Below are positions 2,216-51,589 of a stretch of 64,000 nucleotides of DNA, one piece after another (positions within the stretch are counted from its first letter, which is position 1; each line of letters opens with the position of its first letter). The stretch covers positions 12,249,041 to 12,313,040 of the forward strand of contig CM055902.1 in assembly GCA_029582155.1 (NCBI GenBank), given 5' to 3'. The position numbers were made by a program, and so were the translations under genes. The notes beneath the pieces were generated by a model that saw only the letters and a program-made list of their open reading frames with translations, was not told the origin of the DNA and did no database searches. This stretch comes from Panopea generosa (lineage: Eukaryota > Mollusca > Bivalvia > Adapedonta > Hiatellidae).

Positions 2216-2583
<368 letters not shown>

Positions 2584-2589
2584 TCACAG

Positions 2590-17388: not shown

Positions 17389-17395
17389 ACCAATA

Positions 17396-25759: not shown

Positions 25760-26446
25760 CGAATCTGATTTAAATATAAAAGATCAAAATATATATTAAA
25801 ATTAGCTTTCAAGTTACTTTTACTTTCATTGGAAATATAACATAACCACTTTTTTACCTGGAATATTAATAAAATGCATTTTGTTCTTTAAACAAATGGG
25901 AAATATTTAGAACACAACTACCATAATATCGAAGTGTTTATGCAAAGATATATATTTCCATGATAACTGAAAAATAACTATGCGAATAACTAGCATCATT
26001 TATGATAAAGAATGTGCACTCTTGTTGCAGTTTTTCTCATCGAGTGTTTCTTGCCCATGTTTGTCTTTATGTACATCATCCCCATTGTCATCATTGTGTT
26101 CAATGCTAGTAAATATGACTTTATAGTGGTAATGAACTTTGTAGTTTCAAGTTACATATACAATTTCTTATTTAAGCCGTTTTTGGCGGGGACCGATCCT
26201 TATCAACGGAATTAATACTAGAAATAACCAGACTTGATTATCGAATCGTTTAAATTTAGAGACATTTCGTCGTTGTATGAATTCCTTCAATAATGGTGAC
26301 CGTATTATTTATAACTTGTTCTTATGGGTTAATGTAACTGTATAACCGACTAACTGTCTATCCAAGGGTTGATAGCTCGAGGTTCCATCCTGCTACCATC
26401 TACTCTGTAACAACTGATGTAACAGTTATGCTAGTATAATTGTTGT

Positions 26447-26525
26447 AATTATAATTATAGTATAATCATTTTGATAATAATTATAGTATAATCATTTTGA
26501 TAATAATTATAGTATAATTATTTGA
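26447..26525 (+). repeat. 26-bp tandem repeat, about 3 copies
   Basis: ATAATTATAGTATAATCATT followed by TTGATA is repeated three times with 26-bp spacing. It lies where unit B has its 52-bp minisatellite, and 52 is twice 26, so the two arrays may have a common origin. Confidence 0.8.
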
Positions 26526-28587
26526 ACACTAATGCGAGTACAATTTTTTTATACTAATGGTATTATACCTACTGTAGCAATAATGCTAATGTAATTTTTG
26601 AAACAATTATGTTAGTGTTATTGATGTAAACTTTCTGTAAGTATAATTCATGTTACAATATTGTTAGTGTAGTTGTACTTATAGTGTAAATATAATAAAT
26701 GTAACAGAAATATTCGAAATTCAACGTATTTTAATTGTTGCAAAACCAATGTTAAATGTAATGAACACTAAGGTTAGTATATTTGATGTAAAAAAGTAAA
26801 GTGGTACACATGACTATAAAACCTAAAAGAAAACACAAATGAAATTATTTTATCCAAAAAAAAATTTAGAAATTCCATTGAAATAGTTTCATGTTATGTC
26901 TAACTATGTAAACTTGTGACTGCTGTCTGCATCTAAACATAACTTTAGAGTAGATAACATTTTACTTAATTTTTATCCGTACTATCTTTGATGCTGTATT
27001 CAAATGTACTCTTCCATAAAAGTTACTTCAGATTCATAATAGGGAAATTGTTCTGCCATATTAAGATTCAACTCGGCTCAAATATTAGACCGTATAGTCG
27101 TTGTATTTGATGAGGATCCGTATTCACCAACCATTATTGAGTATAATCGTAGGCTTGATTTTGAAAATCCAAAGTTTTGTCTAAAAATTGTCTCTAAATG
27201 TGTTCTTGAGTTAAAGTCTAATATTATGTTTATCAATGGTTTGTAAAGAAGACTCGAGGACGGCAGTGAAGATTTACGTGTTGGAAACAGCCATCATCTT
27301 TAGCTACTGAACAGTATATATGTAAAAACGTATATCAAATTGTCCACTTTAATATAAGTTTAAGGCCGTGTTTATCACATATCACCAGAAATCACAAAAT
27401 ATACTTTTAACACATACATTGAAAATGAAATGAAATGTTTATGATCCTTTCCTCAACAACTAAAGCGCCATAACCTTTCAACTCAATATAATCTAATTCT
27501 ACAATTGTTTGAAATATACTGAAGCACATCAATTATTTTACAACAACGTCCTCATGTCACACGTGCTTTATGTTATTTTTGTATTATCTAGATAGTTATG
27601 GCTGTTTTATTAGATATACGGCCATAGGCCATCTGCTCTAATTAAATAGCAATTAGTCTATTGTTGTTCGCCTGCATTGTTGTTATTATAACTTCCTCTT
27701 AACCTGATAACGTTGCTCATCAGCCTGGGTTGTTCAACAAGCTGTTAACTTGATGAACTATTGTCTATCCGATATCTTAAAAATTCTGAAAGTTGCTTTT
27801 ATAATAAATACAATACTTTATAGAAAAGTACGATTGACAGTTAATTCTTACCTTGAAAGTATAGATTTCCAAGCACCACGATTCTAATTTTCATGTTAAC
27901 ATTAATTTGAACAATTGGATCAAGGTGTATACGAATTATCATCATTTATAGTGTAAAAAGAAATATACTATAAGTATTAGTATATTTAACTGAAATTTGC
28001 CTTGCTGAAATACGTATGTTTGTGTTTTGAGTTATATGTTCCACAAAAAACATATTTAACTGATCTGTCTTGTATCGAGACAATGATTGATACTGTTCTT
28101 GAATTTAATCCCCTTCATATTAATTCAGGTTATTTCAAGGTGGCAGTTATTTATGTAAATTAACGACAAGAGGCAATAAGATAAGTAGTTTTTTTTGTTT
28201 TGTTTTTTTCTATATCAAACTGGGTTTCAGTGCACTTGAACATTTAAAATATGAATCGGTACCCTCAATAATGTCAACTTAAACATTTCAATGCCTTCCT
28301 TTTATCACGAGTTTATTTAATGATCGTATTTGGTTTCCAACAGCCGGAAGTAATTGTATTAGTTTAATTCCGGTTCATATTGGCCTTGCTGTTTCCGTAT
28401 TAGCCGAATTCAGCTCGGATTGACCAAGGTCGCGACGTAAAACGTCAAAGTATATCCCTATGAAAAGGCCAATACAATAAAGTTAATTAACAATGCCTGT
28501 TATTCTCTTATTTATGCTTTATACTGCAGGCTATCTCTTCTTCTGTATAGGTATACTGCTGTCAATATAAACATCAATGAATTAATG

Positions 28588-29310
28588 AAAGTCTTTTAAC
28601 GAGGGTAGCCCAATTAGTTCCAACTAATCTTCATTGAAGCCCTCTAAAGTGTATTTACATATTATTTATACAATAGCAAAATAATATAAAAACATTTTAA
28701 GCATTGCATGCAAATTGATTGTACATGAGAAATGATAACTACATGTATATATATTTTTTAAATTTTCAACCAATCCTTTGAAAGTCTTTTGAATAATACA
28801 TATATATACACATAAAACAACAATACAGCAAGTATAATTATGTACAGTTAATAATATATTAATAATATTTGTGTATACATTGGAGGTGGTGCATTTTTTG
28901 TAGCACGTGCGATACTAATTGTTAATTATTACTAAATGCTGTATTCGGGACATATGAAGTAGTTCATTCTGTTTGTAATCATTTAACAAACTTTTGACTG
29001 TAGTACAGCTTTTGATATTATCCGGTATACTATTCTAGATTAAAGTTCCAGAGTAGGACACACTACCTTTGAATGATTCCCTATTAGGTTTTGAAGTGAT
29101 AAAGTTTAATTCATTAAATTTGTTGAAGATAAATTTCTACTAACGTTATCATGGGTATTAAACATAGCGGTTATATAGGAAGATGCATTGTTTTTTGGAA
29201 AATATGTACATCAAGTTTGCTTTTTGGAGAAATGTTCTTTGTTTAATGAAAAGTGCATTTATAAACTTCATAGCGTCTGCAAATGTTGAATATTGATGAC
29301 ATAAGATAAT
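28588..29310 (-). pseudogene. 3' end of another LINE (CR1/Jockey-like), insertion specific to unit A
   Basis: Minus-strand translation gives LFIKQRTFLQKANLMYI, then in shifted frames SSYITAMFNTHDNVSRNLSS and RESFKGSVSYSGTLI, a stop where WNS is expected, then NSIPDNIKSCTTVKSLLNDY. This is the usual order at the end of a CR1/Jockey-type reverse transcriptase ORF ('SYSGA.LWNSIP...LK.FK'). At least two frameshifts and two stops make it dead. The 3' UTR contains AATGAAGATTAGTTGGAAC and CTACCCTCGTTAAAAGAC and ends near 28588. It falls at a point where unit B (about 44320-44540) has no such sequence. Confidence 0.75.
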
Positions 29311-30769
29311 ACTATGTTATGTAGATACTGTTTTTTGTTTCTTTTTGTGCACAATTCACTTTTTGACTGCCATGACTGTATGTTGTTGGATTTACGTTAA
29401 ACAGTAATCTTCATATTGAATGTTATCAAACGACTATATTCAAGATTGTAGCCGCCATATTCTAACTATAAAACATTTACTGAGAACATAAACAACTATT
29501 CACATAAGGTAAAATGCATTGGTCGCCCCTGTTTAATAGTATGTTTGTCATCTATTTGTGTCCGATCAATTCAAGCAAATGAAAATTGTTTAAATCCATA
29601 TGAGAATACATCGTTAACTGCCAGATTAAAATATTTAGAGTACTTAACCATGTGTTCCAATATATATGGCATACTGTATAATTGTCAATAACACTCAAAA
29701 TGTATCGAAGTATCAACCAGACACGATGTGCTATTAAGTTCTAATTAAAAATACCAACCAAACCTTATACAATGGAAACGACCTGAGATATCGCCAACAA
29801 ATCAATGCAAATGTATTATGCCAACTTAATGGGATCGCTATTGCTACATGTGTTGTAACATTAACGTTATCTATTAAAGCATCTGAAATTTAAACAATTC
29901 TATAAACATTTGAATCAAATGTCTTCATGTAATGATGCTATAGATGACAACCAAACTGCATTTTACAGTTGACATGCCAGATACTGGGAATGCCTATTTT
30001 GATGTTCAATAGTTTGAAGAGTTATATACGGTGACCGAGAGCGTATTTATACTCGGAGGAATCTTTTTGATACTTTAACGCACAACACATAAATGTTATG
30101 TTACTGTTAGTCTTCTTAGATTCAAAGTGTCATTGCGATTAACTCGTACTGAAATTCAATAAAAAACTTCGTAAATTGAAAATCTAGAATTAGAATTTCA
30201 TTCCATTGTTATTTCTAATGAAATTTTAAGGCATTAAACGATGAATTTTATACATACTGTTTCCTGTAAATTGTGCGTTTATTTTAAAAATGATAGCTAT
30301 TTATAACATGCACTTAAGCTCCATCAATGTAATCTACTACATCAGTGTATTTTGTTTCTTTATATATGCTATAACTTTGCAGGTATTCAAATGGATGAAT
30401 GGTGCAAAAACTCTGATGTGTATAATTATGATTATATATTTAATTTTAACAAGTAAATATATTATTTTACTATACCGTGACGTCATTTATACAATCGCGT
30501 GGCATCGAGACTGTCAATATAACAGATAATAATTAAATGTTGTTTTTCTACTTTATACCCATCAATATAAAACAAGTGAGATATCATTGAGCTTTTTCTC
30601 ATTGAACTCATTTTCCTTTTCGATTTGGTATATCGAAAATATGTGCGATTAGCAATATCTCGATCTACAGTTAAACCTGTATAATCATTCACCTCTATTA
30701 AGCAGCAACTTGTCCTAAGCAGCCACATTTGCTTATTTCCATTTCTATTCTTTCAGAGCAAATTAACCT

Positions 30770-31200
30770 GTATTAATTTTATACTGTAACTACAGCATGT
30801 AACACAATAGCTTAGGCCATAATATCTTTGTTAACACACAACCTGTTGTTTTTGTTAGCAAAATAGCTTATTCCTCATATTTGGTTAAGAAACAGATCAT
30901 TCCTAATACTTTTCTATGAACAATAGCTAAGTCATTGTACATTTATTAACAAACCAGCTTAGACATTATATAAATAGTTAAATCATCATATATTTAGTTA
31001 GCAAAATAGCTCAGATATTATATAATAAGCTTAGATAATCATATTTATGTGTTCTAAATAGCTTATTCCTAATAGTATCTAGGCAAAATAGCCGAGTCAT
31101 CATATTTGACTGTGCCAAATAGTCGAGTCATTACAATTTTCTTATGATAATAGTTTAGATATTTATGTTTTTCTTTGGATAATAACTTAGATCATCATAA
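30770..31200 (+). repeat. Degenerate minisatellite (AAATAGCTTAGTCATCATATTT type), unit A copy
   Basis: Variants of CAAAATAGCTTA, GTCATCATATTT and GTTAGC recur at about 30-37-bp spacing. The same array stands at 45650-46120 in unit B, so it predates the duplication. Confidence 0.75.
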
Positions 31201-31814
31201 TGTGTAAGCATATTTTTATTTTTATTATATTTAAGTTGGTGTATGCGATACAGTGTCAACTCGTACTTAATATCGCTACAATCAGTATTTATTACTTTTA
31301 CCTTTGTATCACTGTTTTTAGGACCGTTTAATGTTAAAGATAATTCTTTAAATTGGTAACTCGAGCTAAAACATACAATCATTGCTTCGTTCAAAATGTG
31401 AAACAGTTGTAGATAAGGCCAGACAAAAATACATGTGTTCATGAACGAACCAAAAATCACATCCAAACCATAAAGTTTGTTTTCATCTTGAAAAATAAAA
31501 ATAAAATTTTATATTTTGTTTTTAATTAGAAATACGAAATGCTACTGTAGAAATCTGCCTACTTTGTCAACGAAAATTATATTTGAATTGTTCCTTATTG
31601 ATTTAATATCTTATAAAGATTAAATATCGAACAAAAAAAACAACTAATTTGTTCATTATTATTACAGAGTGTCTTGAAAAAACAGAAAAAATGTAAAGTA
31701 TCTATTTACCCTACATATATGTCTGGCCTGAGAGGTTACAACATGGTTCACCGCCTTAGCTTCGTCATATCATACGACGAGACAGTACATGCATTTGTAT
31801 TATGTCATTGAAAT

Positions 31815-31930
31815 TGTAGTGTTTTATGTTAAATTCGAATTTCAAAACGCAATACATACTCTTAAATTGCAATACTAGTATGACATAATATTTCAACATG
31901 AAAAGCCTGGTTTCTATTTCGTCCAACCTA
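31815..31930 (+). repeat. Repeat copy on left side of Tc1-like pseudogene
   Basis: GTTTTATGTTAAATTCGAAT, AACGCAATACAT, TATGACATAATATTTCAACA and TGAAAA match, in order, 33520-33630 and (weaker) 33690-33810 on the other side of the transposase pseudogene. Confidence 0.6.
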
Positions 31931-32262
31931 TCTCGATCCCACCCCTTCGACCATCGTCATTCCGGTAGACAAGAAAGTATATACACTGAACAGGTACAAG
32001 TAGTCCTAACCCTAATGTTCAACGAAAAAAATGTACTTAAATAAAAAATTATGATTATACGACGTGCCTTGTTTATAAGCTATCTTCTACGGTACAGTTG
32101 CACGTGATATATCGTGCAAATGGCGTGTCGTCACGGTTTAGTTCATTTCCCATGCTTTGCAAGTGGCGCTTAAGGTAAAGGATTTAGCGAGAACTAAAAT
32201 GTACACTACCAATTTACATTTCAGAAACACCACATCTAGATTTATTGCTACACACCGGTTGT

Positions 32263-33347
32263 ATGCCGCATTTACCAGAACATGTTAGGCCGAAGGTTAT
32301 CGGCATGTTAAACGAGCTATAAAGCCGTCACAAGACACTGTTATTACCATCATTTAACGATTTTGCGTCTAAAACTACGCATGCCACTGGAACCATCAAA
32401 TACCGCCCACGACCAGCTAAGCGCCGAATAAGCACAATAAGACAGAATGGGCGGATGAGCATGCTTCACATACGGGACCGCTTCCGGTCAACTACCGTCA
32501 CTGCCAGGCGAATCATTGGTGTTCACGGGTATGTTAAACATTTGATAATTTAAAAATAAATGTTTACTTTAATTCTACAACACAATAAATGAGTTAAACT
32601 TATTTTTAGATTTCTTGTAGACGACAAATTCATCCTTGCACTATTCGCCGTCCGCTTCGTGACGTGAAATGCCGCAGACCACAAAAGGGACCTATCTTGA
32701 TTGTCAGACATAAAGCTGCACGCGACCAATGAGCTAGACGGAATAGGAGATAGACCCAGTGTCAATTGGAAGCATTTTCGTTTTCGGGCGAATGAAATTT
32801 AATTTAAATCACGCGGACGGCCGTGTACGCGTTTACAGGGCTCGTGGGGAACGTCACTCGGGCTAGTATGTTCTCAAACGGAACAGGTAGGGTGGTGATA
32901 GCGTTCATGTATGGGCTGGCATCCCATTTTTGCCAGAACCCATCTTGTTGTGTTGAATGGAAATGTGAATGATCAATCATACATTTATAATGTTCAGCAG
33001 CCAGTGGTCCTCCCATTTTGAGAACATCATATTCCTTGTGGACGTTACGTTTTTAGCACAATAATGCATCTGCACATAGGGCGCGTATAACCTCAAAGTC
33101 ATTGGTGCATAACAATGCAACTGTCATAGATTGTCCAATTATGTCTCCTGTTGAGCATGTCTGGAATTACCTTGGTCGCAGGGTCTATGCGCGTAACACC
33201 CCTCCAAGTACAGTTCCAGAGTTACCTCAGACTCTTGTACAAGAGTGGGCTAACATCCCTCAACACCGCATAGCAACAACCATTCTCTGTATGAGGTGTA
33301 AATGCATCGCCTGTATACGTGCAAATGGGTCATACACACGGTATTAG
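32263..33347 (+). pseudogene. Decayed Tc1/mariner-superfamily DDE transposase, with an intron-like gap
   Basis: The N-terminal part MPHLPEHVRPKVIGMLNEL is followed, after a stop and frame changes, by helix-turn-helix-like sequence and TGTIKYRPRPAKRRISTI, HIRDRFRSTTVTARRIIG, then RQIHPCTIRRPLRD and KGPILIVRHKAARDQ. Further on come VVLNGNVNDQSYI, HNNASAHRARIT (where the family has QDNA.PH, so the second catalytic Asp is Asn), SPVEHVWNYLGRRVYARN with the third catalytic Glu kept, and the C-terminal NGSYTRY stop. The first catalytic block (FSDESRF) is not intact. Several stops and frameshifts make it inactive. It would be about 330 residues, normal for Tc1-like transposases. I found no terminal inverted repeats. 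Bases 32529-32620 interrupt the frame like an intron (listed separately). Confidence 0.85.
32529..32620 (+). other. 92-bp GT-AG intron-like insertion in the transposase pseudogene
   Basis: The family sequence is interrupted exactly between GTTCACGG and ACGACAAATTC. The gap starts GTATGT, ends with a T-rich tract and TTTCTTGTAG, and has an in-frame stop (TAA) soon after its start. Removing it joins ...IIGVHG to RQIHPCTIRR in frame, the order expected for the family. This could be a real intron carried by the element or a chance insertion. Confidence 0.55.
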
Positions 33348-33484
33348 CAATGTGACTTGAGTAGTTTGTCCATATGTTACGGATAATGCTTTTCAACTTT
33401 GTACCTTGTAATGTTGAATGAAATATGTTGGCTACATTTCAGTAAATTATAAAATATATGACGTGTGCGTTTCAAAGCTTTTCA

Positions 33485-33810
33485 ATATACTAGCCCGTGG
33501 ACTTTTATAATTACATTTTGAATATATAGTGCCTTATGTTAAATTCAAAGTTCAGAACGCAATGCATTATCTTTACAATATGACACAATGTTTCAACATG
33601 AAAACCATGAAATACGCGTTCACAAACACTAACTCGTCCCAATCGTCAAAACAATAGTCGAGAAGTGTATATATATTAGTCCGTGGAGTTTTATAACGAC
33701 ATTATTAATATAATCATAGTGCCAAACGTTGTATTTGAAGTACAGAGCGCAATATATAATCTTAAATAAAAAAATAAGATAATGCTTTAACATAGAAAAT
33801 AATATAATAG
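33485..33810 (+). repeat. Tandem pair, period about 180 bp, right of the Tc1-like pseudogene
   Basis: ATATACTAGCCCGTGGACTT at about 33486 and TATATTAGTCCGTGGAGTT at about 33671 start two units that both continue with ATAGTGCC, an AACGCAAT or AGCGCAAT block and CAATGTTTCAACAT or TAATGCTTTAACAT. The second half matches unit B near 46440-46500. Confidence 0.65.
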
Positions 33811-36125
33811 TTTTGCCACGTGGCATTGTTTGTCCAAGTAAATACAATGTACAATTTGCTTAGACTCTGTTCGTTTATCTAAGGAAAATGTCATAATAGC
33901 AAAAAATATCGATCGTTGATTGGATTGTCAACCTGTCTAGGTGACAGTCCGTACCAGGCCAAATATATAATACACGTTAAAGCATACACCAAGGTATCAC
34001 AACACAACACGGAGTCGTAGGTAATTTGGTACGAAATATTTGCAAAATGGTTCGTATGTTGCTGCAGATGTGTAAGGAAAAGCTGACTTAGGTTATTCTG
34101 CAGTAAGACATAACTGGTGTAAAAAAGTGACTTGTATAGAGTATAGCATATGCACGTATGTATGGGCATTGCATGTTTGTTTTTAAAAAAAACAAAACAA
34201 CAACTTGGGGTGCCACTGCACTGTCTTTAAAAAACAAGCTTGCCAAACTACTGTTTAGTTTGCATTTGTTTGTGCGGATTAATTCCTGTTACGAAAAAAT
34301 ACTTTAATATAAAAATAATCATTACATAACATGTATTTTGTTGTTTCATACACTGTATATTAATTATTTGTAGGGGACGGGCCGAATTTAAGTATTACAT
34401 GGGAACTTGTGGACCAATCCCATAAAAAGTTGAAATCAAATTTGGTTAAACTAATAGAGCAAAGAACAAAATTCAACTGTGTAGTGAGACTTAAATGCAG
34501 ATATCACGCGGAACCAAATTGATCAATTGTCTGATACGGTGACTAATGCGTAGTCTCTGAAGAATCGGTTTGATACTTTAATGTATAACACGGTAAAGAC
34601 TTCCGACTGCTAGTCAATATAGATCCAGATTGTAATCTCGCTCAATTGTGACAGAAACTCAATACAGGTGAACGAATTGAAAACTAGATTTAACATTTAA
34701 CATTTTATTTCTGAAGCGATAGATGTTCAATAGTTTAACCATTTAATTCTGTTTTTTGTGTACATAATGCTTTCTATGCATTGTGTCTTTTTTATATAAA
34801 CACTTTTCTTTTATCACTGCAAAGTCTCGGCGGTGTCGGTAGACAAAAAATCAAGATAAATCATCACAGAGACTGTGACTAGGTCACCATGCAAACTACA
34901 AAAGACAATGAGTGCAAGGCACAAACAAAGGAAAACATACACCACGAAAGTCGATTGAATTGGTAGAGTGATAATGATCAATCTGGACTTTCATTGTATT
35001 AGACTGATTTAAAGCATTTACCATTAGCGGTCTTTACATGTGTTAATATCATCTGTGTTTTAAACCACTTGGTGTATTTGGTTTAAGCAGTGAACATTAT
35101 TTAGGGAACTTAAAACACTTTTTTATACATTGTTTTTGGATTGTAGGCCATCCTCAAAAAAAGGCATACAAGAATAAATTTCATTCATCTTCTAATATAT
35201 ATAGTTAACATTTTCTCTAATGTGGGTTGTATTTCAGCATATACTGTAACAAACAGAAGATGTTGGTTGTACCTGTCACATTTATTGGTAGAAAAATTCC
35301 ATTCATAAGAAAATGTTTTTTCATTTGATATTATGTCAATGTTTATTTGATTTTGCATCAGAACAGTTACTTGAAACAATTTCTTATTATATGACCGCAC
35401 ACATTTGAAGCCAGAACGCATGTTTTAATTCGTTGGTGAAGGATGGCAATGTAGAATAACCGACAAAACTGTTATATTATTCAAAAAGTTGAGTTGAGGA
35501 ATATATATGTTAAAGATAAATATTGGCCTAGGTTTATCAATGAAAATAATCATATCTCCATAAGTCTGTATTAACGAGAGATTTATTAAGTCATTCTCAT
35601 GTGTTTTTACAGGAATCAATCAAGATTTATTCATTGATTCATTTATAATTATAAATGCAAATGATCAGACGTTTCATGAGTGATTATGAGTGAACAAATA
35701 TCAACCAAAACAGAAAACATGAAAGGAAACATATACATATGAACTAGAATAGCTTTCTGCTTAATCCTTTTCACTTGTAATTTAATGTATGGCTTCCATG
35801 TATATTGTGAATACTAAATACCAATCGGTTGGTCAAATGTTTCAGACATCATATGAAACCAGATATTGGTAAACGTAAATATGTTTTGATATGACATGTC
35901 TCTGTTAATTTTGCTATCATTACAGCAGACATATTAGCTTTCATTAAACCTGATAGATAAAAACTATAATTATATGATGAGACTTTTAGATTATGATTAT
36001 TAAATGATGTGACATACAATGTAGGGTAAACAGATTCGAAATAAAGTAATGAATTTGTAGGCTGAGAGTTCGAAATGCAGGTTTGTGAATGTGAATGAAC
36101 ACATTTCATATATATATATACATTT

Positions 36126-36245
36126 ACCACCGTCCTTCTGCAAGTAAAAGGCAAAACTTCGTTCAGTTGGATAATTTTTGAGCAAACGGGACTCGAAGAA
36201 CCTACGATCTAAGCGGTGAGAGGTAAGTGATTTTGAGAAATCTTA
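36126..36245 (-). mobile_element. SINE, family 2, minus strand, unit A only
   Basis: Plus-strand ACCACCGTCCTTCTGCAAGT, AGCAAACGGGACTCGA and GCGGTGAGAGGTAAGTGA are the complement of the family-2 SINE (compare 59860-59970). The 5'-most head is missing. At the matching point of unit B (about 49100-49135) the sequence is uninterrupted, so this insertion followed the duplication. Confidence 0.7.
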
Positions 36246-38640
36246 AACGATTTTTTTTAATTATTGGAGAGAATTGTATATTAAACGGGTTTAAAATGTA
36301 TCACATAATATGTGCTGGTTTATGAAAAGTCACTATTTGAGTTCGAATGAGTAAAAAATAAAATTGGTTGTTTTCGTGAACTGGTAGTAAAAAATAAACA
36401 TAAGTATATTTCGAAAGACAATTAAACACCACGACACTTAAATATGGATTAATTAATTGATAAATGCAACATAAGAATGAATGACATCGTTTAATGAAGA
36501 GACGACGGGGAAAGGAGCGATGTTGGGGTTACCCGTATGTTAACTCTACAGTGGCTGTTTTGTCGCCGACCTTTTCGAGACGATGACCTGTGTTGTAACT
36601 TCTTCTGTATGATTTGCTATTTTTATAATTATTCAATACAGCTTATTCATAGCTGAACCCAGAACGTGATATCTCTCGAATCGGATCTATTTACTTTATC
36701 ACCTGTCTTTTTGATTTAGCATGGTACTGACATTGTACGCTGGCGTATTTGCGTCAAAAATATATTTCCTCAAATATAGAAAGCTTCAGTTTATATATGT
36801 GTTACATATGTTACGTCATATCTCTCACAAAACAGGAATTGTATTTATCCTTGTCGTACTATTCAACCAAAAGACAGAGAGGCAGTCATGTTTTTGGTGT
36901 CGTGGTTAAATTTATGTCATAAATATATATACATATATATACATAGCTATGCAATTGTTGTAGTTGTCCATGTATAAACTGACGTTCTTACATTTCTTTC
37001 TCAAGATAAATGCTAAACCCATACAATGCCAATTCGGTGTTTTTACACAGAATCTCTATTACTTAATGAGAAAATAAAATTGGTCAAATTGTGTAATTAG
37101 AATTACTTTCAGCTCTTTCTGACTACTGTAACTTAATTTAAAATGAAAAACACTACCGTGAGTTAATTGAAAATAGTGTCATTTATTTAGTGACTTTTAT
37201 TCGACCAGTTATTGGTCCTTGGAAAATTCTCTTTCGAGCTAGTAAAGCAATTATTGCATCGAGCTTTGCTGCTTATATATGAGTTAACTTAATGAATAAC
37301 ATCTGGTGTTCATAAATTAATCATCATCATGCAGGAAGAGAATGAAAGGAAATAACGGTTTAACGCCTTATAAACGTTTTATAATGTTACCGTGACATCC
37401 AGAATCTTTGATTGAAGAAAAAAAAGCTGCAGGTACCGTACAACTTCCATTTTGTAACAAAAAGTTTTTTTGGCTCACTACCTTAGCGGCACTAGTTAAT
37501 GACGTTGGCTCGTAAAATAAAAATTATGAGTTTTTTTTATCAATTTAGTTAAAAACCATATGTATTATTATCTAAGATGATTGCTTATGAAAAAATGTAT
37601 GTTGCCGTGCTCCGTTTTTAATATGATACCTACATCAAAATCTAATGTTTTGTTCTTTTTGATAAAATTGATGTCATTAAGATGTCATTCCATTACACAT
37701 ATAAAACTGAGCTTAAAAATGAGCACCATAATTAAAAATGGATAAAACTAATTCATCCTTGAAAAAGGACACTGAAAACTAAGTTTAACATAAAATTCAC
37801 GAAAATGTAAGCTCTTCCAGAATTTACAAAGACTGCCGTGTAATTTTAACTTATCGTGAATAGTGAAATGTTTTTGTGTTATCTGAAATATGTTTATATT
37901 TGGTAACATCAGAAAATTATAAATGTTATGTTTTAGTTTAGAAATAGTCTTAAAACCGTATTTACAATCATTCATTTGTAAAACCTTTTGAAAAGACAAA
38001 ATAAGAATTTCTATTTAAAAAAAAAACATATTGATATTACTAAAAGTTATCTATAACCCCTACTTTCCCTAGGTCTAGATCGACTGGTATGATTTTAATG
38101 TAAAATCATATCAATCGTGAGATAAGCTATAAGTGTACATTCAAGTTACATTGATTGGAAATTAAACAAACCTTTTTTTTAAATTAGATTTGTTCTTTAT
38201 CAAAATATATGGGAACTATTGTAAAAAGACCACTATCAAATTCTCGATGTATTTGATTTTACCTACAAAGAAAATAATTATATTTCCATGAAAATTAAAA
38301 CAAATAATATGAATAACTCGTATTACTTATAATATAAAAATAAACTCCCCTGTTGCAGTTTTTTCCACTGATTGGTTCTTGTTTCTTGTTTCTTCAAGCA
38401 TGTCATCATTTTCATCATTTATGTATTGTTAGTAAATATGCCTTTATAGCGGAAATGAACTTTGACATATCCCGTTACACATACAATTCCTTATTTATGT
38501 TGTTTGGGAAACCGATCCTGGTCAATTGAATTAATACAAGAATTGACCAGACTTGATTATTGAACCGTTTAAATTTGGTTAAATCATGTCGTTGTATGGA
38601 TTCATTCAAACATGCTCACCGTATTATTCATAACTGTACA

Positions 38641-38712
38641 AGTACACGTGTTATTGTGGGTTGTTGTAACTGTATAATTACACGTGTTATTGTGGGTTGT
38701 TGTAACTGTATA
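38641..38712 (+). repeat. Tandem duplication, period 35-36 bp, two copies
   Basis: ACACGTGTTATTGTGGGTTG and TTGTAACTGTATAA occur twice in direct succession, starting near 38643 and 38680. The single-copy counterpart in unit A is at about 26318-26350. Confidence 0.8.
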
Positions 38713-38990
38713 ACCGACTGTCTTGCCGACCGTCGTTGGTTTGAGGTTCCGACCTGCTACAGTTCATTCTGTGATGATTTAACGACATCTTTGTTTTACG
38801 GCAATGGATCTCTCAACTATGAGTATGTTGTGAAACGGTCAGGGAATTGAAGAAATTATAATTGTCGTTCATTGGTTTGAGATGCGGTTGGATCATTTTT
38901 GTCCCTCGGGATAACTGTTGCGGAAATTTCCATTGACGCCGCAAACCCATAAAAGATAGTTTTTCTTATGAACAACCCAAACTGTACAAT

Positions 38991-39355
38991 TATCAGTGTA
39001 GTATCAATAACGATAGTATGATTGTTGTAACAATAACACTAGTATCAGTGTAGTATTAATAACGATAGTATGATTGTTGTAACAATAACACTAGTATCAG
39101 TGTTGTATCAATAACGATAGTATGATTGTTGTAACAATAACACTAGTATCAGTGTTGTATCAATAACGATAGTATGATTGCTGTAACAATAACACTAGTA
39201 TCAGTGTAGTATCAATAACGATAGCATGATTGTTGTAACAATAACACTAGTATCAGTGTAGTATCAATAACGATAGCATGATTGTTGTAACAATAACACT
39301 AGTATCAGTGTAGTATCAATAACGATAATATGATTGTTGTAACAATAATGTTAAT
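38991..39355 (+). repeat. Minisatellite, 52-bp period, 7 copies, highly uniform
   Basis: TATCAGTGTAGTATCAATAA, CGATAGTATGATTGTTGTAA, CAATAACACTAG repeat with exact 52-bp spacing (38991, 39043, ...). Copies differ at only a few sites, so expansion or homogenisation is recent compared with the surrounding duplication. Confidence 0.95.
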
Positions 39356-40901: not shown

Positions 40902-41408
40902 AATTTGGTGTCGACCATGACTTATATACTATGGAACTACATGCAACACATCTGGACAGGGTGGACAAATTTACATACATGAACTGAAAGCTTTATAAGA
41001 GTAGGATCCAGTTAAGGATTCCATATTGTATCTATGGTTTGCATTGTAGCTAGGTGCACTCGCCGTAGTCTGGTCTGTACATTTATGTCTTGGTTATTCA
41101 CAAATAATTATCTCCATATTTATACATCATGCATTGTGAATGAGCTTCTGAAAAGATCCCAAAAATAGTAAATTCCGTTGTGAATTTAATTATCTCCCTT
41201 TATGAAATTAAATATATATTAATTCACTGTATCTATATGATCCAACGGGTTTATAAATATGTCCTTTATATAGCATGTGAGTAGTCACGAATCCTTAACT
41301 GGATCCTACTGATATAAAGCTATCAGTTCATGTATGTAAATTTGTCCACCCTGTCCAGATGTGTTGCATGTAATTTTATAGTACATAAGTCATGATCGAG
41401 ATCAAATT
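40902..41408. mobile_element. Complete long-armed MITE, 507 bp with 120-bp inverted arms
   Basis: The left arm 40902-41021 (AATTTGGTGTCGACCATGAC ... GATCCAGTTAAGGATTC) pairs with the right arm 41289-41408, whose reverse complement begins AATTTGATCTCGATCATGAC and ends the same way. Arms are equal in length and mostly identical. The middle (41022-41288) has no coding capacity. Related pieces occur at 12034-12170, 17396-17514, 24211-24303 and 24434-24757. No target-site duplication could be assigned, so the superfamily is open. Confidence 0.85.
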
Positions 41409-43004
41409 CTTGATTTCTGACTCGTTCCAGTAAAACTGCATGTGTTTTCATTGATATTGTTTATATTACAGATAAAAAACTAGTCAAAACTCAATTAAGC
41501 TATTAAGTATGTTAGCAAAATGTTGGTTAAACAGAAGCCAAGACGGAAGCGCAGGTTAGCGAGTGGGAAACAAACATCACTTGCAGCTTAAGATAATTAT
41601 AGATGTTTAAACACGTATCTAATTTTTATCTTTAAAGTAAGATGATGAAGGCGTTTTATAACATATATCGCCTGAAATAACAAAAGAAAACTTTTAATAC
41701 ATGCATCAAAAATGTTTGTTTTTTGTTATATAAGTCATTTTCCTTAACAGCCATAGCGCCATAATGTTTCAATTCAATAAAACCTAATTATACAATTGTT
41801 TGAAACATACTGATGCTCATCAATTATTTTACAACAAAGGTTATTTCGTCCTCATGCAACACATGCTTTATGTCATTTTTATATCATCTAGATTGTTATG
41901 ACTTTTTATAAGATCAACTGGCCATAGGCCATCTGATCTCATTAGAAAGCAATTAGTCTATTGATGTTCGCTCGCATTGTTCGTTATTCCCCCACCCCAC
42001 CTGAACCTAACAACTCTCCTCATCAACCGGGGTTGCAGTGTTCAACAAGATGAACTATTGTCTATTTGATATCTTTAAAATGCTGACATTTTCTTTTATA
42101 ATACATACAATAGGTAATAGGAATACAGTAACATTTTGTTTCGATAACCATTTCATTGTTATCATGAAAGTATAAATTACAAGTTATCATAATTCTAATA
42201 TTCATCTTAAAGGGAATATACAAGGATTTTTCCCTTTTTTTTAAATTGGCTAAAAACATTTATTTCCAATAAAGCATCCCTATATACACTCACTGATCCC
42301 GCATTGCCAAAAGGATATATATTTAAACATGCCAAAATATTATATTGAAAAGGGATATCCTAACTTGTGCTACGAGCCTATGTTAGACTAAAATAGATTT
42401 CCCGCTTAAAATTGTAAAATATTTTGTGATGTATTAAATGAGTCACGCGATTGCATTTTGATTTCAATATGATCCGTTATACATTTCATCTTAGAAAGTG
42501 TCCGAATGACGATACATATAGGTAAATAAGTGCCGTTTACTTTTAGAAAGGGGGTTTCGTTTCAAGTTTTGCAATCCAATTTAAATATCGATTATGTCAC
42601 GGTTTGGTGAATTTGACATACCAAACCATTTTGATTTTATTTATGCATGATAATGAGATGCTCTATTTTTAAAATAATTCTAAATTTTTTAGACATTTAA
42701 TGCTCCTTTTTCCTGATATAATCCCTTTAACATTAACTTTAACAATTGTATTCAGGTATATACTAATAATCAGTATTTATAGTGTAAAACAAACATACTA
42801 TTATTATGAGTATATTCAAATGGAATTTGCCTTGCTTAAATGCGTATATTTTAGTTTGTGTTTTCAGTTATATTGTTCCATCAAAACCATATATAACAAA
42901 TTTGTCTTGCATCGTTTAATATACAATGACTGATACTGTTTCAATTAAGGAATCCCGCTACATATATTTCAGGTTATCACAAGCAAGGTTGCAGTTATTA
43001 AAAT

Positions 43005-43930
43005 AACGCTTTGTTGAAGAAAAATATACATTTCCTAATCATGGTGAACTCCCAACTCATCGATATAGGTTGTTCTCACTCGCAAACATAAAATTATTGA
43101 ATAGAATATCAAGGCTTTGTGTAAGTATTTATTTCTTTCCTAATGAGAGTTTGCTTTGATTTTATTACTATTGTGTTGGTAATTTTACTTCATTTGTAAG
43201 GTCATCGACAACATCCTCGTTAAACATTTGTGTTTTTATTGTATACATCAATATCTACTTGAGTGTAATTTTGTGTTAAACTATTCACATGTACGTACTG
43301 CAATAGAGTGGCAGATCTTTTTTTATCATATACATCAATATCTACTTGAGTGTGATTGTGTTTTAAACTATTCGCATATACGTACTGCAACAGAGTGGCA
43401 GATCTTTTTTTATTATAATACCTTGCTTGTTTATGTAACAGAAGCGAATAGGCGATCTATGGCTCACCCGTTGTTGTTGTTTTTGTCATGGTGTTTAGCG
43501 TCGCCGTCAGCAATTATTCAGTTATGCTGCGACCGTCGTCTACTTGAGACAGTATTCTAAGCAATGCCGCCCTGAAGTATCATGCCGCAGACATTTACTA
43601 TGTTACCCCACCCAGTCACATTATACTGATACCGGGCCAACCAGACCAAGCACTTTCCTTTAAATGATGAACGCCAAGCGGGGAGCTTCTAGTATCATTT
43701 TAAACTATTAAATAGAAGCGAACAGTGAGATTTAGTTCATCTGTAAATCAGGTTTTAAATAGATACCGTCAATTTAAAGGCGATACTATATGGGTATCAA
43801 TTTAGTGATTTCATATTGATTCAGTTATTGATTGTTATACATATATTGGCCCAAGGCTGTTGCCAAAGATCAAAAACTTAATTAATAAGAATGTTTCTGA
43901 ATACCGAGAAATTATTTAATTATTTTATAT
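43005..43930. other. Unit B-specific insertion of about 0.9 kb
   Basis: Unit A has no counterpart here (compare 28145-28160). The block contains a two-copy tandem repeat with an 89-bp period (43243-43415, CATCAATATCTACTTGAGTG ... GTGGCAGATCTTTTTTTAT) and the SINE fragment at 43485-43705. Confidence 0.55.
43485..43705 (-). mobile_element. SINE, family 1, head-less copy, minus strand
   Basis: TGTTTAGCGTCG, CGACCGTCGTCTACTTGAGA, AGTATCATGCCGCAGACATT, ACCGGGCCAACCAGACC and AGCTTCTAGTATCATTTT follow the order of the copy at 3575-3832. The tRNA-like head is missing. Confidence 0.65.
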
Positions 43931-44344
43931 GTGTACATTAATGAAAAGAGATGGCTGCATAAGTAGGTTTCGTATTTTTTTGTTTTTATATCTAACATTG
44001 GTTCTAGACGTGTAAAAAGCAATACTATATATATAGGTTTCAGTGCATTTTAACATTTAAAGTATGAATCGATACCTCCAGTAATGTCAACTTCAGCATT
44101 ACAATGCATCGTTTTATCACGAGTAATGTTAATGATCAGCTCATGGTTTCAATGAATTCAACGTAACCGAATTAGTCTAGTTCCGGTTCGTATTAGCCTT
44201 GTTGTTTTTCGTATTGGCCGAATTCAACTCGTCATAATCTATCTAAATGACAAGGCCAATACGATAAAGTAAATTATTACTGCTTGTTATCTGTTCTTTC
44301 ATATGTTTATACTGCTCTCATTATAAGCATGCCTCAGGTCTATT

Positions 44345-44520
44345 AACAAACAATGGAAAAGCAGGGAATTATATGCCTGTCCCACAATTCATAGCAATTG
44401 AACGCTTACTTAAATTATGACGTCATTCAAACTTCCTTGAAGCAACTGTCCAATCAGTGTGCTCGTACCAATTGCTATTGAACGTACCCGATCAGGAGAG
44501 CTGGGTTCGTTCTACAAACT
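44345..44520. repeat. Dispersed repeat, copy 1 of 2
   Basis: Shares with 49590-49745 the ordered blocks CACAATTCATAGCAATTGAA / CTCAATTCACAGCTATTGAA, GACGTCATTCAAA / ATACGTCATTCAAA, AGCAACTGTCCAATCA / AGCAACTGACCAATCA, CCGATCAGGAGAGCTG / TCGATCGGGAGAGAGCTG and GTTCTACA. Both copies are in unit B at non-equivalent places. Confidence 0.65.
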
Positions 44521-45649
44521 ATGTAAATATTGTTTGTTTTTCCGTGCAGGATTCACTTTTTGACCGTCACGTCTGCGGTTGGATTTCCGTTAAACTATAA
44601 TGCTCAAATTTTACCAAACGACATTCAAGATTTTAGCCGCCATATTATAACAAGAAAGCAACAGAATTAAGATAAAACGAAAACAATCCTTTGTTTCTCC
44701 AAGTCATTTTAAATATTACTGATATCATAGACAACAGTTTTTTACTATACATATTAAGTACAATGCAATGATCGCCCCAGAGTAACAGTATGTTATTTTT
44801 CCGATCGTCAAAAGCAAATGGAAATAGTTTAAAATCCATATAGGAATACATCGTTAACGGCCAGGTTGAAATATTAGAATACACACTTTATCAATGTGAA
44901 TAGCACTAAAAATGTATCGAAGTATCAACCATACACAATGTGCTATTAATTTCTAATTAAAATAACCAATCAAAGTTTAAGCAATGGAAACGACCTGGGA
45001 CATCACCATCAAATCAATGCAAATGTATTATGCCAACTTAATGGGATCGCTTTTGTTCCATGTGATGTAACATTTATGTTATCTATTAAAGCATACACAC
45101 AATCCTATAAATATTTGAATAAAAATTCTTGTTGGTAATGATGCTATAGAGGACAACCAAACTGCATTTTACAGTTGATATGCCAGATAATGGGAATGCA
45201 TGTTTTGATGTTTATTAGTTCGAAGTGTTATATATGGTGACTGAGAGCGCATTCATTCTCGAAGGAATATTTTCGATACTTTAATGTACAACACGTAAAG
45301 GTTCAGTAACTGTCAGTCAACTTTAATGCAAATAGACATTTCTATTAATTGTTACTGAAATTCAATAAAACTTTGTAAATTGAAAAACTAGATTTCGTTT
45401 TCAATTCTGTTTCTAAGTTTATGGAATAGTAAAGGCATTTTATAACGTATTTTATACATAATGCTTCCTGTAAATTATGTTTTCTTATTTTAAGAATGAT
45501 AGCTATTTTATAATTTGCACATAAGCCATCAATGCAATGGTCTAAGAAAAAAAATACAGCAGCAAGAAGATTGAACACCAACTGCAACGGTTGATAAGAT
45601 GGTTAGAATGTGTGAGCAATAATCACAATAAACACCTTAGCAATTCTAT

Positions 45650-46120
45650 AACAACAGCATGTATTACAATATCTTAGCTCATCAGAGTTTGTTAGCACAA
45701 TACCTTAACTTGTCATATTTTTGTTAGCACAATAGTTAGTCATCGTATATATTTGTTAGCAAATTTGCTTATTTCTCATATTTTTCTATACACAATAGAT
45801 TAGTCATCATACGTTTGTTAGCCAAATAGGTTAATCATTATATAATATAAGTTAGTCATCATATTTCGTTGGTTAAATAGGCTAGTCATTGAATTAATAG
45901 CTTAACTCATCATATTTATCTATGCTATACAGTTATTCATAATATTCTTATATGCAAAATAGCTCAGTCATCATAATTGTGTTACCAAAATAGCTAAGAT
46001 AATCATAGTCAGGTATCTTAAAAAGAGTATTTCTCATATTATTATATGTAAAATGGCTGATTCATCATATTTTCGCTAACAAAATAGCTAAGTCATCATA
46101 TGTTTGTTTTCAAAAATTCA
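45650..46120 (+). repeat. Degenerate minisatellite (TTAGTCATCATATTT type), unit B copy
   Basis: Counterpart of 30770-31200, with about 12-13 decayed units of CAAAATAGCTAAGTCATCAT type. Confidence 0.75.
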
Positions 46121-46879
46121 GTTGATGTATGCGATGCAATGCCATTTCTTACTAATCATTGTAAAATTCAATACGTATTACATTTCACTTTGGTATATTT
46201 GTTTTAAGCATCGTTTAATGTTTCAGATAATCCTTTAAATAAGTAATTCGAGTTATAACATACAATCAGTGCACATGTTTCGTTCTAAAGGTAAATCAGT
46301 TGTAGATAAGGCAAGACAATTATCTGCATTTGGGGTTACTCGACCGAACCTAAAGTCAAATCCCAACCTTAGCGTTTGTTTGGATCTTGAAAAAGAAAAC
46401 AATGTAAAAATGTTATGTTATCTAAAAAATGTAAAAAAATGCGACAATCTTAAATAACATGTTCTTAAATAAAATATGAAATAATGCTTTAACATGAAAA
46501 ACAAACGCACTAGTTGAAATATTTCGATATATACGCTATGTATATTAAACTCTTCAATAGGAGAAACAATTGAAATAATGCACGTTCTTACTAAACAGCT
46601 GCGTCCTTTTTTCCACGGTAACATGATTATTGCACATAAAAAGTATTATGTAATTGTGTTTGAAATGTGTTTCAAATGGTTCTGTGATGGGGCTGTGATA
46701 TCTTGCTGCAGATGAGTCAAGCAAAAAGCTAGCACAACATACATGTACTGCATTAAGGCATCACTATTGTTAGAAAAGCTACGTGTTTAGGATTCTGCAT
46801 GTATTTATGAGCACTTGGTGACGTATTTTTTTAAAAAAAGGTCTTAAGGTGTCAATACACTGTCTTTAAAAAAAACTAG

Positions 46880-47430
46880 CTGATCAACCTATCAGTTATT
46901 GTGCATATTCATGTGCGGATATCATCCTGCCATGACAATATGCCCTAAAAAAGATTATATGTTTATAACCATGGAAACCCTAGAATTTATAAAGAATAAA
47001 GAACAAATTCAACTGTGTAATGAGACCAGGAAACTAAGATGGTCAACCTTCAGTTATTGTGCATTTTATTTTGAGTACTGTGCACACGATATACCTTGTT
47101 TTACAAAGAACGAAATTAAACTGTGTAATGAGAGCTGAAAACCAAGCAGATTAACCTGCCAGATAGTGTGCATTTTTATGTGCGGATACATTCCTGATAT
47201 TGAAAAACATTATATGTTGAACATTTTATTACCGTGGACTACTTAGACTTTTTTTTATAAAGAACAAAGTAAAAACTTCAACTGTGTGGTGAGAGCTGTG
47301 TGATGAGAGCTGGAAACCAAGCTGGTCAACCTTATTATTACAGTTAATGTTCATTGTTATGTGCGGATATCGTGGAAATCCTATACCTTATTGTAAACAA
47401 TACAAAGAACAAAACACAACTGTGTTGTGA
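46880..47430 (+). repeat. Four-fold tandem repeat, about 125-140 bp units, unit B
   Basis: Each unit has TGTGCATATTCATGTGCGGA-like, ATTCCTG-like and AAAGAACAAATTCAACTGTG / TAATGAGA blocks (near 46995, 47105, 47260 and 47405). Unit A has a single copy (34250-34495). The open frame at 46899-47138 is a by-product. Confidence 0.7.
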
Positions 47431-49589
47431 AACCTGATAGTCAGATATATTAATAAACCTAATTGTTCATTAGGTTTAAGTGTTTTATACGGTGACTAAA
47501 GCGTATTCTCTTAAGAATCATTTTGATAACACGTTAAAGAGTTCCGACTGCTGGCAACATAGATCCAAATTGCAGCCTCGCTCATTGTTACAGAAACTCT
47601 ATATGGTTGTTTGAATACAAAACTAGATTTAACAGTGTATTTCTGAATCGACGTATATTCAATAATTTTAATGTTTAATACTTTTTGTGTGTACAAAATG
47701 TTTTCTGTTCATTGCAATGTTTCTTTTCTATATAAACACTATAATCATTGTTTCATCTCTGCGAATTCTCGTTATATTCAGGCGGGACAAAATTTCATGA
47801 CGAATCATCACTGAGTCATCACTGAAACTGTGTCAGTTACAAAGGTCAATGCGAGCGTGAAACAAACAAGGTAAAACATACGCCATGAACATAACGTAGA
47901 AAGTCAATTTGAGTTGGTATAGTGATTGTTGTATTTTTGGACTTTCATTACGAAGGATAAACAGCATTTATCATTAGTTGGTATCGGACTTTACACACAT
48001 TTAAAGCATCTGTGGGTAATGATTTTTTTATTTGTATTCAGGATGTAATCAATTTTAAAACATTTGGTGTACACATGTTTTTGCAATTTAAAACGCTTGT
48101 TTTTTATACATTGATTTTAGATTGTAGGCCGTCTTTAAATTGGTATAAAAGAATATACTGACATTCAGTTGTATTTCAGCATATAGCTTAATTGTAATAT
48201 CATGTTTGCTTCCGTTTTAAATTAATTGTTTCTTTTAGATATAGAAAATGTTGTATATGTCATATTTATTGGTTAAAAAGGTACATTTATTAGAAAATAT
48301 TTTTTTCCATTTAATATTATGTCAATGTTTATCTGATTTTGTATCAGAATATTTCTCGAGACAATTTCTTATTATTTGACCGCACACATTTGAAACCAGA
48401 ACGCATGTTTTAAATAGTTTGTAAAGGATAGCATGCAAAAATAGTGGACGAATCTGAAGTAAGAGCAGTTCAAATGTTTGAGAATAGGATGTTAAGTGAA
48501 AACATGGCATGGGTTTCTCGATGAAAAAATAATTATATCTCCGTAGGTAACCGAAATATGAAGTCTTTCTGTTCCGTTCGCGATCGATCATGATGTGATT
48601 CATTGATTCAATTATAATTATTAATGCAACTTAATCAAACTCGATATAAAACCAAAATCCATTTGAAAATTAAAGACTGAGCAGCAAAACTCAGTTTGCA
48701 TTACGCAATCCGATTTCATTTCTCACTAACGACCATTAATTCATTATTTATTACTTTTTCAGCGATGACATTGCTTTAAGCACCATTCACTTTTTTCATT
48801 AATACGGTGAGATTTAAATTGGCAAATCTAGCCATAGCATTCCGTCAGTGCACAAAGATCAATCGAAACAGAAAATATAGTTGGTTAAATGTTTAAGACA
48901 CCACATAAATTTACATATTTGTAAATACAAATATGTTTTGTAATGACATGTCACTCCTATTGTTGTTATTTATATTACATACGTTTTAGCTTTCTTTCAA
49001 GCTGATCGATATAGAATATATAGTTATACGATGAGGCATTAATAAATTTGAAATGTACTAAAGTCTAAACGGATTTGAAATACAGTAAAATTGTGCAGGT
49101 TGAAAGGATTCGAAATGCGATTTGAAATGTAGAAGAGAATTGCATATGATACGTGCTTGAAATGTATCACAGAATATGTGCAGGTTTACAGATTTAATGA
49201 AAAGTCAAAATATAATTTGTGTTCGAATAAGGGAAAAATTATGTCGATTAATTTTGTGAACTGTTTATTATAAAATATGTTTTTCTATATTTCTGAAGAC
49301 AATGCAACACTACGATACTGAACTATAAGGAATTGACCTATACGACAATTAAATCAGTGCACCTCGTCTTATTACATAACGACGTGGTTAAAAGGAAGAT
49401 TAGAATAACCCGTAAAACAAGTGTTAACTCTACGTTACCGTAGTGATTTTGCAGCTGACCATTTCAAGGCGGTGGCTATTATTTTTACCTCTTCTGTACG
49501 ATTTGCGTTTTCTATAATTAATCAATACAATTCATTAATAGTTTATCCCACTATCTAAAACTCCCGAATCAGGTATACCTACCTTCAAT

Positions 49590-49745
49590 CAAAAAAGCAG
49601 AGCATTTTATATCCGCCCTCAATTCACAGCTATTGAACGCCTACTAAACTGATACGTCATTCAAAAAAGCAACTGACCAATCAACATGCGCCAACTCATT
49701 GCTATGTAACGGACTCGATCGGGAGAGAGCTGTGTCCGTTCTACA
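49590..49745. repeat. Dispersed repeat, copy 2 of 2, within a B-specific insertion
   Basis: See 44345-44520 for shared blocks. It lies in about 400 bp (49560-49950) that interrupts the alignment with unit A at about 36670-36720. Confidence 0.6.
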
Positions 49746-51589
49746 GACTACCTTATGTGTCCAGCCGGGAAACTATTAAATAATCACAAATGAAAATGAA
49801 ATCAAGCAAACATCTCATTTGCAAATGACGTTTTCCTAATAGGGAGGACACGTCAATATAAGAATCTACAAGTAGTTTTATTGCATTGTCAATGTAGCGG
49901 ATAAATAAACATGGCTTCTTTTTCAATTCCAATCAGTTTTTAATTATGTATCTAATTTAGCTCGGTATTGCCATTGGATGACTGCGAATTCATGTCAAAA
50001 ATATATTTCGTGAAATATAGACAGCATTACTTTAATCTGTTTGACTTATTTTACGTCACATCTCTAGCATAATAACATTTATATTTTTATTCAATATTTA
50101 CTATTAAATCATAGAACAATAAGGCAGTCATGTTTCTGACGTCGTGGTTAACATCTAAGTAGTGAGCTGTAATTGTCGATGTATAAACTGTAGTTTTTTC
50201 CCAAAAAGTGTCATCAATACAATTAAAATTCGGCGTGCATAACAAAAGCCCTGGTAAGACATGTATGATACACGGTAAGAGTCAAATTGTATAATTAGAT
50301 CTACTTTCAGTTATTTTTATTCAAAATATCAAAACACTCTTGAGTTAATTGAAAAGATTGTCATTTACATGTTTTAAGTGACTTCAATTTTATTAAGTTA
50401 TTGGTCTTTGGAAAATAATATATTTGCCGATAATCTGCGCCTTGGAGCTTGTAAAGCAATTATTGCATCGACCTTTGCTGCTTCACCGTGAGTTAACTTA
50501 ATGTATAACATCTGGTGTAATCATCAATTAATTATCAACATGCAGAAAGTGAAAGAAAGAAAATAACGGTTTAACGCCTTGTGAACATTTTATAATGTTA
50601 TCATGACGTCCAGATTTAATGATGTAAGGAAACAATAGAATCGCATAACTTCAGAAACTGCAAAATTTCCACAAATGTTTTTTAAACTTTTGGGCTTACT
50701 TACTTATACTCAGAGGATAAAGTTAATGACGTTGACTCGTAAAAAAAAAGTGATAATGTTTTTTTATTCATTCAGTTAAAATCCGTATTTATTATTTTCG
50801 AAGATTATTGATCACGAAAAAAGCATGTTGCCGTACTCCTTTTATTGTGATATTTTTTTTTAAAATGATACATGTACTTATTCAAATCTAAACATTTTTT
50901 ATTATAGGCCATTGAGTTATCAATTCTAGTATGCATGTTAACTGAATTTAAAAACGTGCATCATAATGAAAATGGATGAAAATATGTATACCTTGGAAAT
51001 TGACAATATGTGTACATTTTATAAAGAAATTCATAGACTGCCGTGAATTTTAAAGGAAAAAAATACTAGAAGAGAGACTTTGTACATGCTAGAATTGTTT
51101 TTCAACTCAATTCGCTGTATATTAACATCTGAAAACTTCCTAGACGGCATTCTTAAGTGATCTTGAGACATTATGCAACAACGAAGCGTCTTGACGATTA
51201 TCTATCTCTGCCATCAGCATTCCAGAGTATATAAAATATCCCGTTGTATACATAATGGACGATGTCACTCTTATCGTAATGAATCGTTTTAGAGAGAATA
51301 TCTCGTATAAGTACATGTACATAAACTTTAATTTCGTTGATTCGGAGGAGTAGATACAATATTCTTTTTAAAAAACACATACCTAGTTATAGAAACAGTT
51401 GTATGGGAAAATAGTTTTCATATAAATTGCCAAGATATATATAGAATATTCCAAGGTGTGGATCGGTTGTAATTTGATATCTGATAAAAGGAACTGCAGG
51501 AAGCAGAGAAGAGAACGCCCCTAAGGAAAGAAAGCAATTTGTTTGTTATAGAAAATGGTCAAACTTGGTCATGTATGCTATAAATAGAG

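Follow-up and report, generated by a model that had tools for sequence, protein, structure and literature searches.

Intergenic DNA duplicated in tandem: an old, nested pair of blocks in a duplication-prone region of a Panopea generosa contig

Why do two neighbouring blocks of apparently non-coding DNA resemble one another, and why so unevenly? This question is raised by a stretch of 64,000 nucleotides from the bivalve Panopea generosa (hereafter the window, in whose coordinates positions are given unless they carry a contig prefix or are in Mb), which lies on contig 9 (CM055902.1; C9:12249041-12313040) of a 1.474-Gb assembly in 39 contigs (GCA_029582155.1). An earlier note, made from the letters alone, had described an old direct tandem duplication there, and had suggested that its uneven similarity could mean patchy gene conversion, or constrained elements such as regulatory DNA or a non-coding RNA, kept in both copies. 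We find that the two blocks, A and B, are an old nested tandem duplication of intergenic DNA, otherwise ordinary, in a duplication-prone part of the contig. An intergenic piece of ~12 kb was probably duplicated in tandem long ago, with both copies then decaying without clear constraint.

Self-comparison of the window by BLAST gave a clear, collinear off-diagonal chain, a single one running from 25724/38049 to 37799/51033, and its 13 same-strand islands at 77% ungapped identity bear out an old direct tandem duplication of two blocks:

25724-37799, forward strand: block A, the first copy, delimited by self-comparison
38049-51033, forward strand: block B, the second copy, starting 250 bp past the end of A

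Because A ends at 37799 and B starts at 38049, the copies are adjacent; they also lie on the same strand, with the islands in the same order in both, and by these three properties A/B fits a tandem segmental duplication. Three anchors quoted previously (29705/44915, 35330/48315 and 37200/50395) really align to 44917, 48316 and 50388, and had thus been placed to within 2, 1 and 7 bp. The chain pairs 7,224 sites; without a tandem-repeat island at 26415-26795 (which is included in this count and in the 7,059 four-way sites below), there are 6,871 sites, at 77.2% ungapped identity and ~0.272 substitutions per site (Jukes-Cantor). The two strongest A/B alignments have E values of 0 and 9e-165.

How often does the unit occur in the genome? 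A first probe, 29495-30333, matches the genome in four places, all on contig 9 and each over its full length: A, B and a second such pair at 13.287 and 13.304 Mb. A second probe, 34440-36100, has two whole matches and two more, of ~1,200 of 1,661 bases plus a separate piece, where B and its copy are expected; the rest, among the matches listed (40 of 646 candidates scored), are short repeat pieces of less than 110 bp. The two probes thus place the unit at four genomic positions, two in the window (A and B) and two ~1.009 Mb downstream (their copies), and A/B is low-copy, unlike an interspersed repeat. The neighbourhood also recurs ~1.009 Mb downstream, in the same order and on the same strand, over the 100 kb compared (window positions -12195 to 88012). 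When the window was aligned to this copy (alignments of more than 300 columns and more than 88% identity; 1,452 window bases unaligned and 744 in gaps), mismatches averaged 3.3% over the aligned parts (2.1% within each of the two blocks). Divergence is ~0.272 substitutions per site between A and B vs 0.021 for each block against its 1-Mb counterpart, which makes the A/B duplication older than the 1-Mb pair by a factor of ~13.

These ages bear on a fear voiced in the earlier note, that haplotypes had been joined in tandem by the assembly. That A and B are themselves two such haplotypes is a reading with adjacency as its sole point in favour, and we consider it barely credible, given their 23% ungapped divergence and the presence of both A and B in each member of the 1-Mb pair, which are ~2% apart here. 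Because both members already hold A and B, the A/B duplication is the older one and very probably not itself such an artefact; for the 1-Mb pair, the fear is a serious one, to which we return below.

The nesting extends further back, as each block holds traces of a still older internal duplication, which, like the 1-Mb copy, had escaped the earlier note:

29895-30290, forward strand: older duplicate in A, 62% against 34415-34800
45128-45482, forward strand: older duplicate in B, 63% against 47387-47722
46113-46302 and 48686-48883: second collinear older pair in B, 64%

Three tiers are therefore nested at this locus, at ~62-64% (gaps counted), 77% (ungapped) and, for A and B between the 1-Mb copies, ~98%. 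A further pair in B (44294-44521/49531-49750) was not counted as an older duplicate; it is an interspersed repeat, and the same sequence is found outside the window.

The uneven similarity of A and B is real and above sampling noise. Identity per island ranges from 67.8% to 85.7%, and blocks of 200 sites, tandem island included, span 66%-87.5%, with a variance that was matched in none of 2,000 permutations; excluding that island left 34 blocks of 200 sites at 0.665-0.875, and the variance was again matched in 0/2,000. The earlier figure of 85-90% is right for the best stretches only (maximum 87.5% per 200 sites, gaps ignored). The main tracts are as follows:

27896-30333, forward strand: best-preserved tract of A, with islands 27896-28158 (84.2%), 28210-28527 (79.7%) and 29318-30333 (83.4%)
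42727-45538, forward strand: counterpart of the best-preserved tract in B
34447-36111, forward strand: longest island in A, 75.8% ungapped identity with 47394-49147
47394-49147, forward strand: counterpart of the longest island in B
36714-37799, forward strand: right-end island of A, 75.6% ungapped identity with 49955-51033

Even the best-preserved tract of A holds an island, of 61 sites (28147-28207), at 73.8%.

Some stretches had been called barely alignable, and part of this DNA consists of insertions and tandem arrays that only one block carries:

31987-33492, forward strand: interspersed repeat, in A and its 1-Mb copy and not in B, with matches scattered over many chromosomes
38991-39407, forward strand: 52-bp tandem array in B, aligning loosely to 26415-26795 in A; the array of the 1-Mb copy is longer
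40873-41416: element with inverted arms in B, with related sequence at 12.03, 17.4 and 24.2-24.7 kb of the window
42211-42726: insertion-like 516 bp, in B only, the flanking islands overlapping by 4 bp in A
43007-43924: 918 bp, in B only, the flanking islands overlapping by 12 bp in A, with an 87-bp tandem repeat inside (43233-43417)

Between the islands ending at 31515 and starting at 33760, A has ~2.2 kb vs 43 bp in B; at another gap, B has ~2.1 kb, including an element present elsewhere in the window, vs 429 bp in A. An open reading frame (ORF) inside the interspersed repeat of A (33057-33344) is, judged by its motifs, possibly Tc1/mariner transposase-like, a label left unconfirmed by Pfam, which returned no match. 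Insertions, tandem arrays and deletions account for part of the unevenness; for the remaining variation in identity, chiefly the tract at 27.9-30.3 kb, regional rate differences, old conversion or past constraint may each suffice.

Is there a gene in the duplicated unit? The earlier note had seen none, and for A/B the tblastx, gap-length and codon-phase tests agree. No conserved frame emerged between A and B: tblastx matches are spread over the six frames with comparable strength, and stops interrupt almost all of them; one pair of 30 residues is free of stops (35370-35459/48355-48444, minus strand), and other frames match equally strongly. Neither the lengths of gaps (48/145/66 for remainder 0/1/2 mod 3) nor the codon-phase share (0.444 vs null 0.433, sd 0.011) shows a coding signal, and the six-frame ORFs of the window, when considered, left no coding reading for A/B. 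Pfam gave no match for eight of nine window ORFs and only sub-cut-off matches for the ninth, 16904-17404 on the minus strand, a possible reverse-transcriptase remnant (RVT_1, E 0.003; AHJR-like, E 0.044; both below the family cut-offs).

Alternatively, the best-preserved islands (mainly 27.9-30.3/42.7-45.5 kb) could be constrained regulatory or non-coding RNA elements that were kept in both copies, as the significant heterogeneity of identity would allow. A search of the whole window against Rfam at gathering thresholds gave no match. In a fold scan of 248 windows on the island alignments (two diverged sequences only; 30 column shuffles each, dinucleotides not kept), z fell below -3 in 13 windows and rose above 3 in none, which speaks for this alternative; against it, 8/12 of the best listed windows sit in tandem or interspersed repeats, and three of the other four (all but that at 36834), refolded as single strands with their counterparts, gave z of -1.28/-2.25, -1.26/-5.03 and 0.33/1.03. 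The second of these is a predicted minus-strand hairpin that is strong in B only (A 28389-28510, z -1.26; B 44180-44310, z -5.03, 0/200 shuffles), and its outer 10-bp stem has near-identical sequence in A and B, again a point in favour of constraint; the hairpin could alternatively be the end of a mobile element. On these predictions, the duplicated unit appears to hold no convincing RNA fold.

Because both blocks have young 1-Mb counterparts, here A' and B', constraint could also be tested directly, at limited power. Mismatches between the 1-Mb copies come in kilobase tracts (0.1%-12.3% per kb, some of the highest values in tandem arrays), and over 89 well-aligned 1-kb bins the variance/mean is 17 and the lag-1 correlation 0.57. 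Omitting the tandem island 26415-26795 and B's array at 38985-39407, the islands of A were faster than the rest of A (151/6,694 vs 79/4,778 sites differing from the 1-Mb copy; p about 0.03), and the pooled islands of A and B differed to the same degree as the DNA outside them (264/13,465 vs 202/10,311, both 1.96%). With the arrays kept, islands vs outside were 166/7,037 vs 80/4,790 (A), 137/7,137 vs 126/5,586 (B) and 303/14,174 vs 206/10,376 (pooled). The best-preserved tract is not slow in A, where it differs from the 1-Mb copy at 53/2,418 sites (2.19%). No significant rank correlation linked A-B identity to 1-Mb divergence at blocks of 100, 200 or 400 sites, and polarised changes, computed from counts, made up ~2.4% vs ~2.5% of sites where A's ancestor matched B vs did not.

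Several results weigh against decay without constraint, and they belong together here. Identity between A and B varies beyond chance, and drift at a single rate fails to explain the tract at 27.9-30.3 kb. The islands of B, in contrast to those of A, are slower than the rest of B (113/6,771 vs 123/5,533; p 0.03), and just 10/2,632 sites (0.38%) of B's best-preserved tract differ from the 1-Mb copy. Every rank correlation, moreover, is negative, as constraint predicts (smallest p 0.10), and the constraint tests are limited in power because the 1-Mb pair is itself mosaic. However, low B-B' values extend over kilobases, as they do elsewhere in the 1-Mb pair, and the opposite signs in A and B suit the mosaic of that pair better than constraint shared by the two blocks, though B may be under constraint. 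Since pooled islands match the rest and Rfam is silent, the suggestion of constrained elements goes unsupported, and we regard it as improbable.

It is equally improbable, in our view, that patchy A-B gene conversion made some stretches younger than others. An old conversion tract would fit both the contiguity of the 27.9-30.3 kb tract and the overdispersed identity. Of recent exchange between A and B (A=B, A'=B', A different from A') we found no instance among the 7,059 four-way sites, vs one site in the control class and four other doubly variable sites, so this part of the earlier suggestion also lacks support. We therefore retain decay without clear constraint as the preferred reading of A/B, and the duplicated unit performs no detectable function.

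What, then, is the 1-Mb pair? It spans at least 0.70 Mb (C9:12.04-12.74 and 13.09-13.74 Mb), its copies lying ~1.0-1.05 Mb apart: the probe at 12.200 Mb matches at 13.2085 Mb, counterparts exist also for 12.039, 12.080, 12.170, 12.400 and 12.700 Mb, and the weaker matches of one probe lie at 12.739 and 13.737 Mb. Direct sampling of short-stretch pairs matched 3/10 (12.170, 12.400 and 12.700 Mb). At 11.700 and 12.000 Mb, samples were unmatched and the genome search found no second full copy; the sample at 11.850 Mb had merely a 153-column repeat match in common; that at 12.550 Mb had no match at the sampled partner; 12.080 Mb was missed by sampling and its counterpart placed 26 kb off by the search; and the unmatched sample at 12.100 Mb is repeat. 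An interspersed repeat with an internal ~58-bp tandem array occupies C9:12.0985-12.1035 Mb, and with at least 25 other near-full copies at 92-99% (26 of 1,537 candidates scored) it looks recently active. Searching the genome with 12.850 Mb brought up no counterpart in direct orientation near 13.86 Mb, and inverted relatives at 14.34 Mb (91-92%) and elsewhere on the contig; the fullest relative of the 13.0075 Mb probe is likewise inverted (14.632 Mb, 90%), and a direct relative at 14.018 Mb (89%) is partial. The distal part is therefore rearranged or more complex. A 2-kb stretch at 13.068 Mb, free of N, matches a stretch at ~13.859 Mb at 78-82%.

One explanation is that the pair is a false (heterotype) duplication, in which two haplotypes of one locus were placed successively in the scaffold, and we lean slightly towards it. 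The neighbourhood is collinear at mostly 92-99% identity with allele-like indels, divergence is mosaic as described above, and each probe placed beyond it (11.70 and 12.00 Mb) has a single full copy. Two alleles in an outbred population would be expected to show kilobase mosaics; exchange between true duplicates could also yield them. Heterotype duplication is, furthermore, a documented assembly error: PMC9516828, in its account of older assemblies of three vertebrates, names it the main source of false duplication and puts 7-24% of the false-duplication total on the same scaffold. With the cases in that account, the 1-Mb pair shares allele-like divergence over at least 0.7 Mb on the same scaffold, in the same order and on the same strand; A/B itself does not fit. 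Against a false duplication stand the absence of N from every stretch of the 1-Mb region checked (the junction between the copies lies outside those stretches), the failure of 12.85 Mb to find a direct counterpart near 13.86 Mb, and the relatives at C9:13.72-14.78 Mb and older local tandem copies, which mark this stretch as duplication-prone. The pair may alternatively be a genuine segmental duplication. The relatives in C9:13.72-14.78 Mb are mostly inverted ones (70-92%) of the 12.85 and 13.0075 Mb probes, two of these relatives recur ~145 kb apart, and another old local tandem array (C9:12184414, 12192383 and 12200040; 13194363, 13202208 and 13208544) has ~6-8 kb spacing and 75-82% identity in both 1-Mb copies.

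What flanks the duplicated unit? Two open frames were identified:

2580-2879, forward strand: probable 3'-terminal coding exon, an open frame followed by a stop
81856-82920 (window-relative), minus strand: open frame of 355 codons resembling a neuropeptide precursor, in which W-x-x-x-Y-G-K-R units recur, ~31 kb right of B and outside the window

The exon, whose frame is intact in the 1-Mb copy and whose product differs there by one residue, would form the left edge of the intergenic DNA. The 355-codon frame has a second copy at C9:13339742-13340806, open in both, with four residues changed; its repeated motif suggests a resemblance to the Wx3Yamide precursors that PMC4200219 names in two oysters, the match of name to motif being our own reading. 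Pfam, run on three peptides, gave no match for two and only sub-cut-off ones for the third, the neuropeptide-like frame, whose match to the repeat family CTD (E 8.6e-5, below cut-off) we took as an effect of its repeats. If exon and precursor are read correctly, A/B sits between two convergently oriented genes. We consider it highly unlikely that the tract at 27.9-30.3/42.7-45.5 kb is an ancient, duplicated long-range regulatory element of a flanking gene (e.g. the neuropeptide-precursor gene) within a truly duplicated megabase. The window also carries minisatellites at 15920-16508, 18785-19300, 56343-56710 and 59492-59842 (units of ~51, 27, 61 and 50 bp); the 1-Mb copy has a longer version of the 61-bp array.

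We propose that, long ago, a ~12-kb intergenic piece would have been duplicated in tandem, e.g. by unequal exchange, and that both copies would afterwards have drifted without clear constraint, accumulating substitutions to ~0.27 per site. Mobile-element insertions, growth of tandem arrays, deletions and substitutions would together have produced much of the uneven similarity. Much later, either the whole neighbourhood would have been duplicated again or the assembly would have retained both parental haplotypes; hence the second A/B pair, 1.009 Mb downstream. Like the general class of tandem segmental duplications of non-coding DNA, A/B is adjacent, in the same orientation, collinear, low in copy and decaying with insertions and deletions, and it differs solely in its age and three-tier nesting.

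For the reading of such loci, the finding counsels caution, as uneven similarity between old duplicates need not imply constraint; in this case the locus also exists as a whole in a younger copy, which permitted a direct, if weak, test of constraint. Users of this Panopea generosa assembly should note that contig 9 appears to contain at least 0.7 Mb twice, a neuropeptide-precursor exon among it, which bears on claims of gene copy number.

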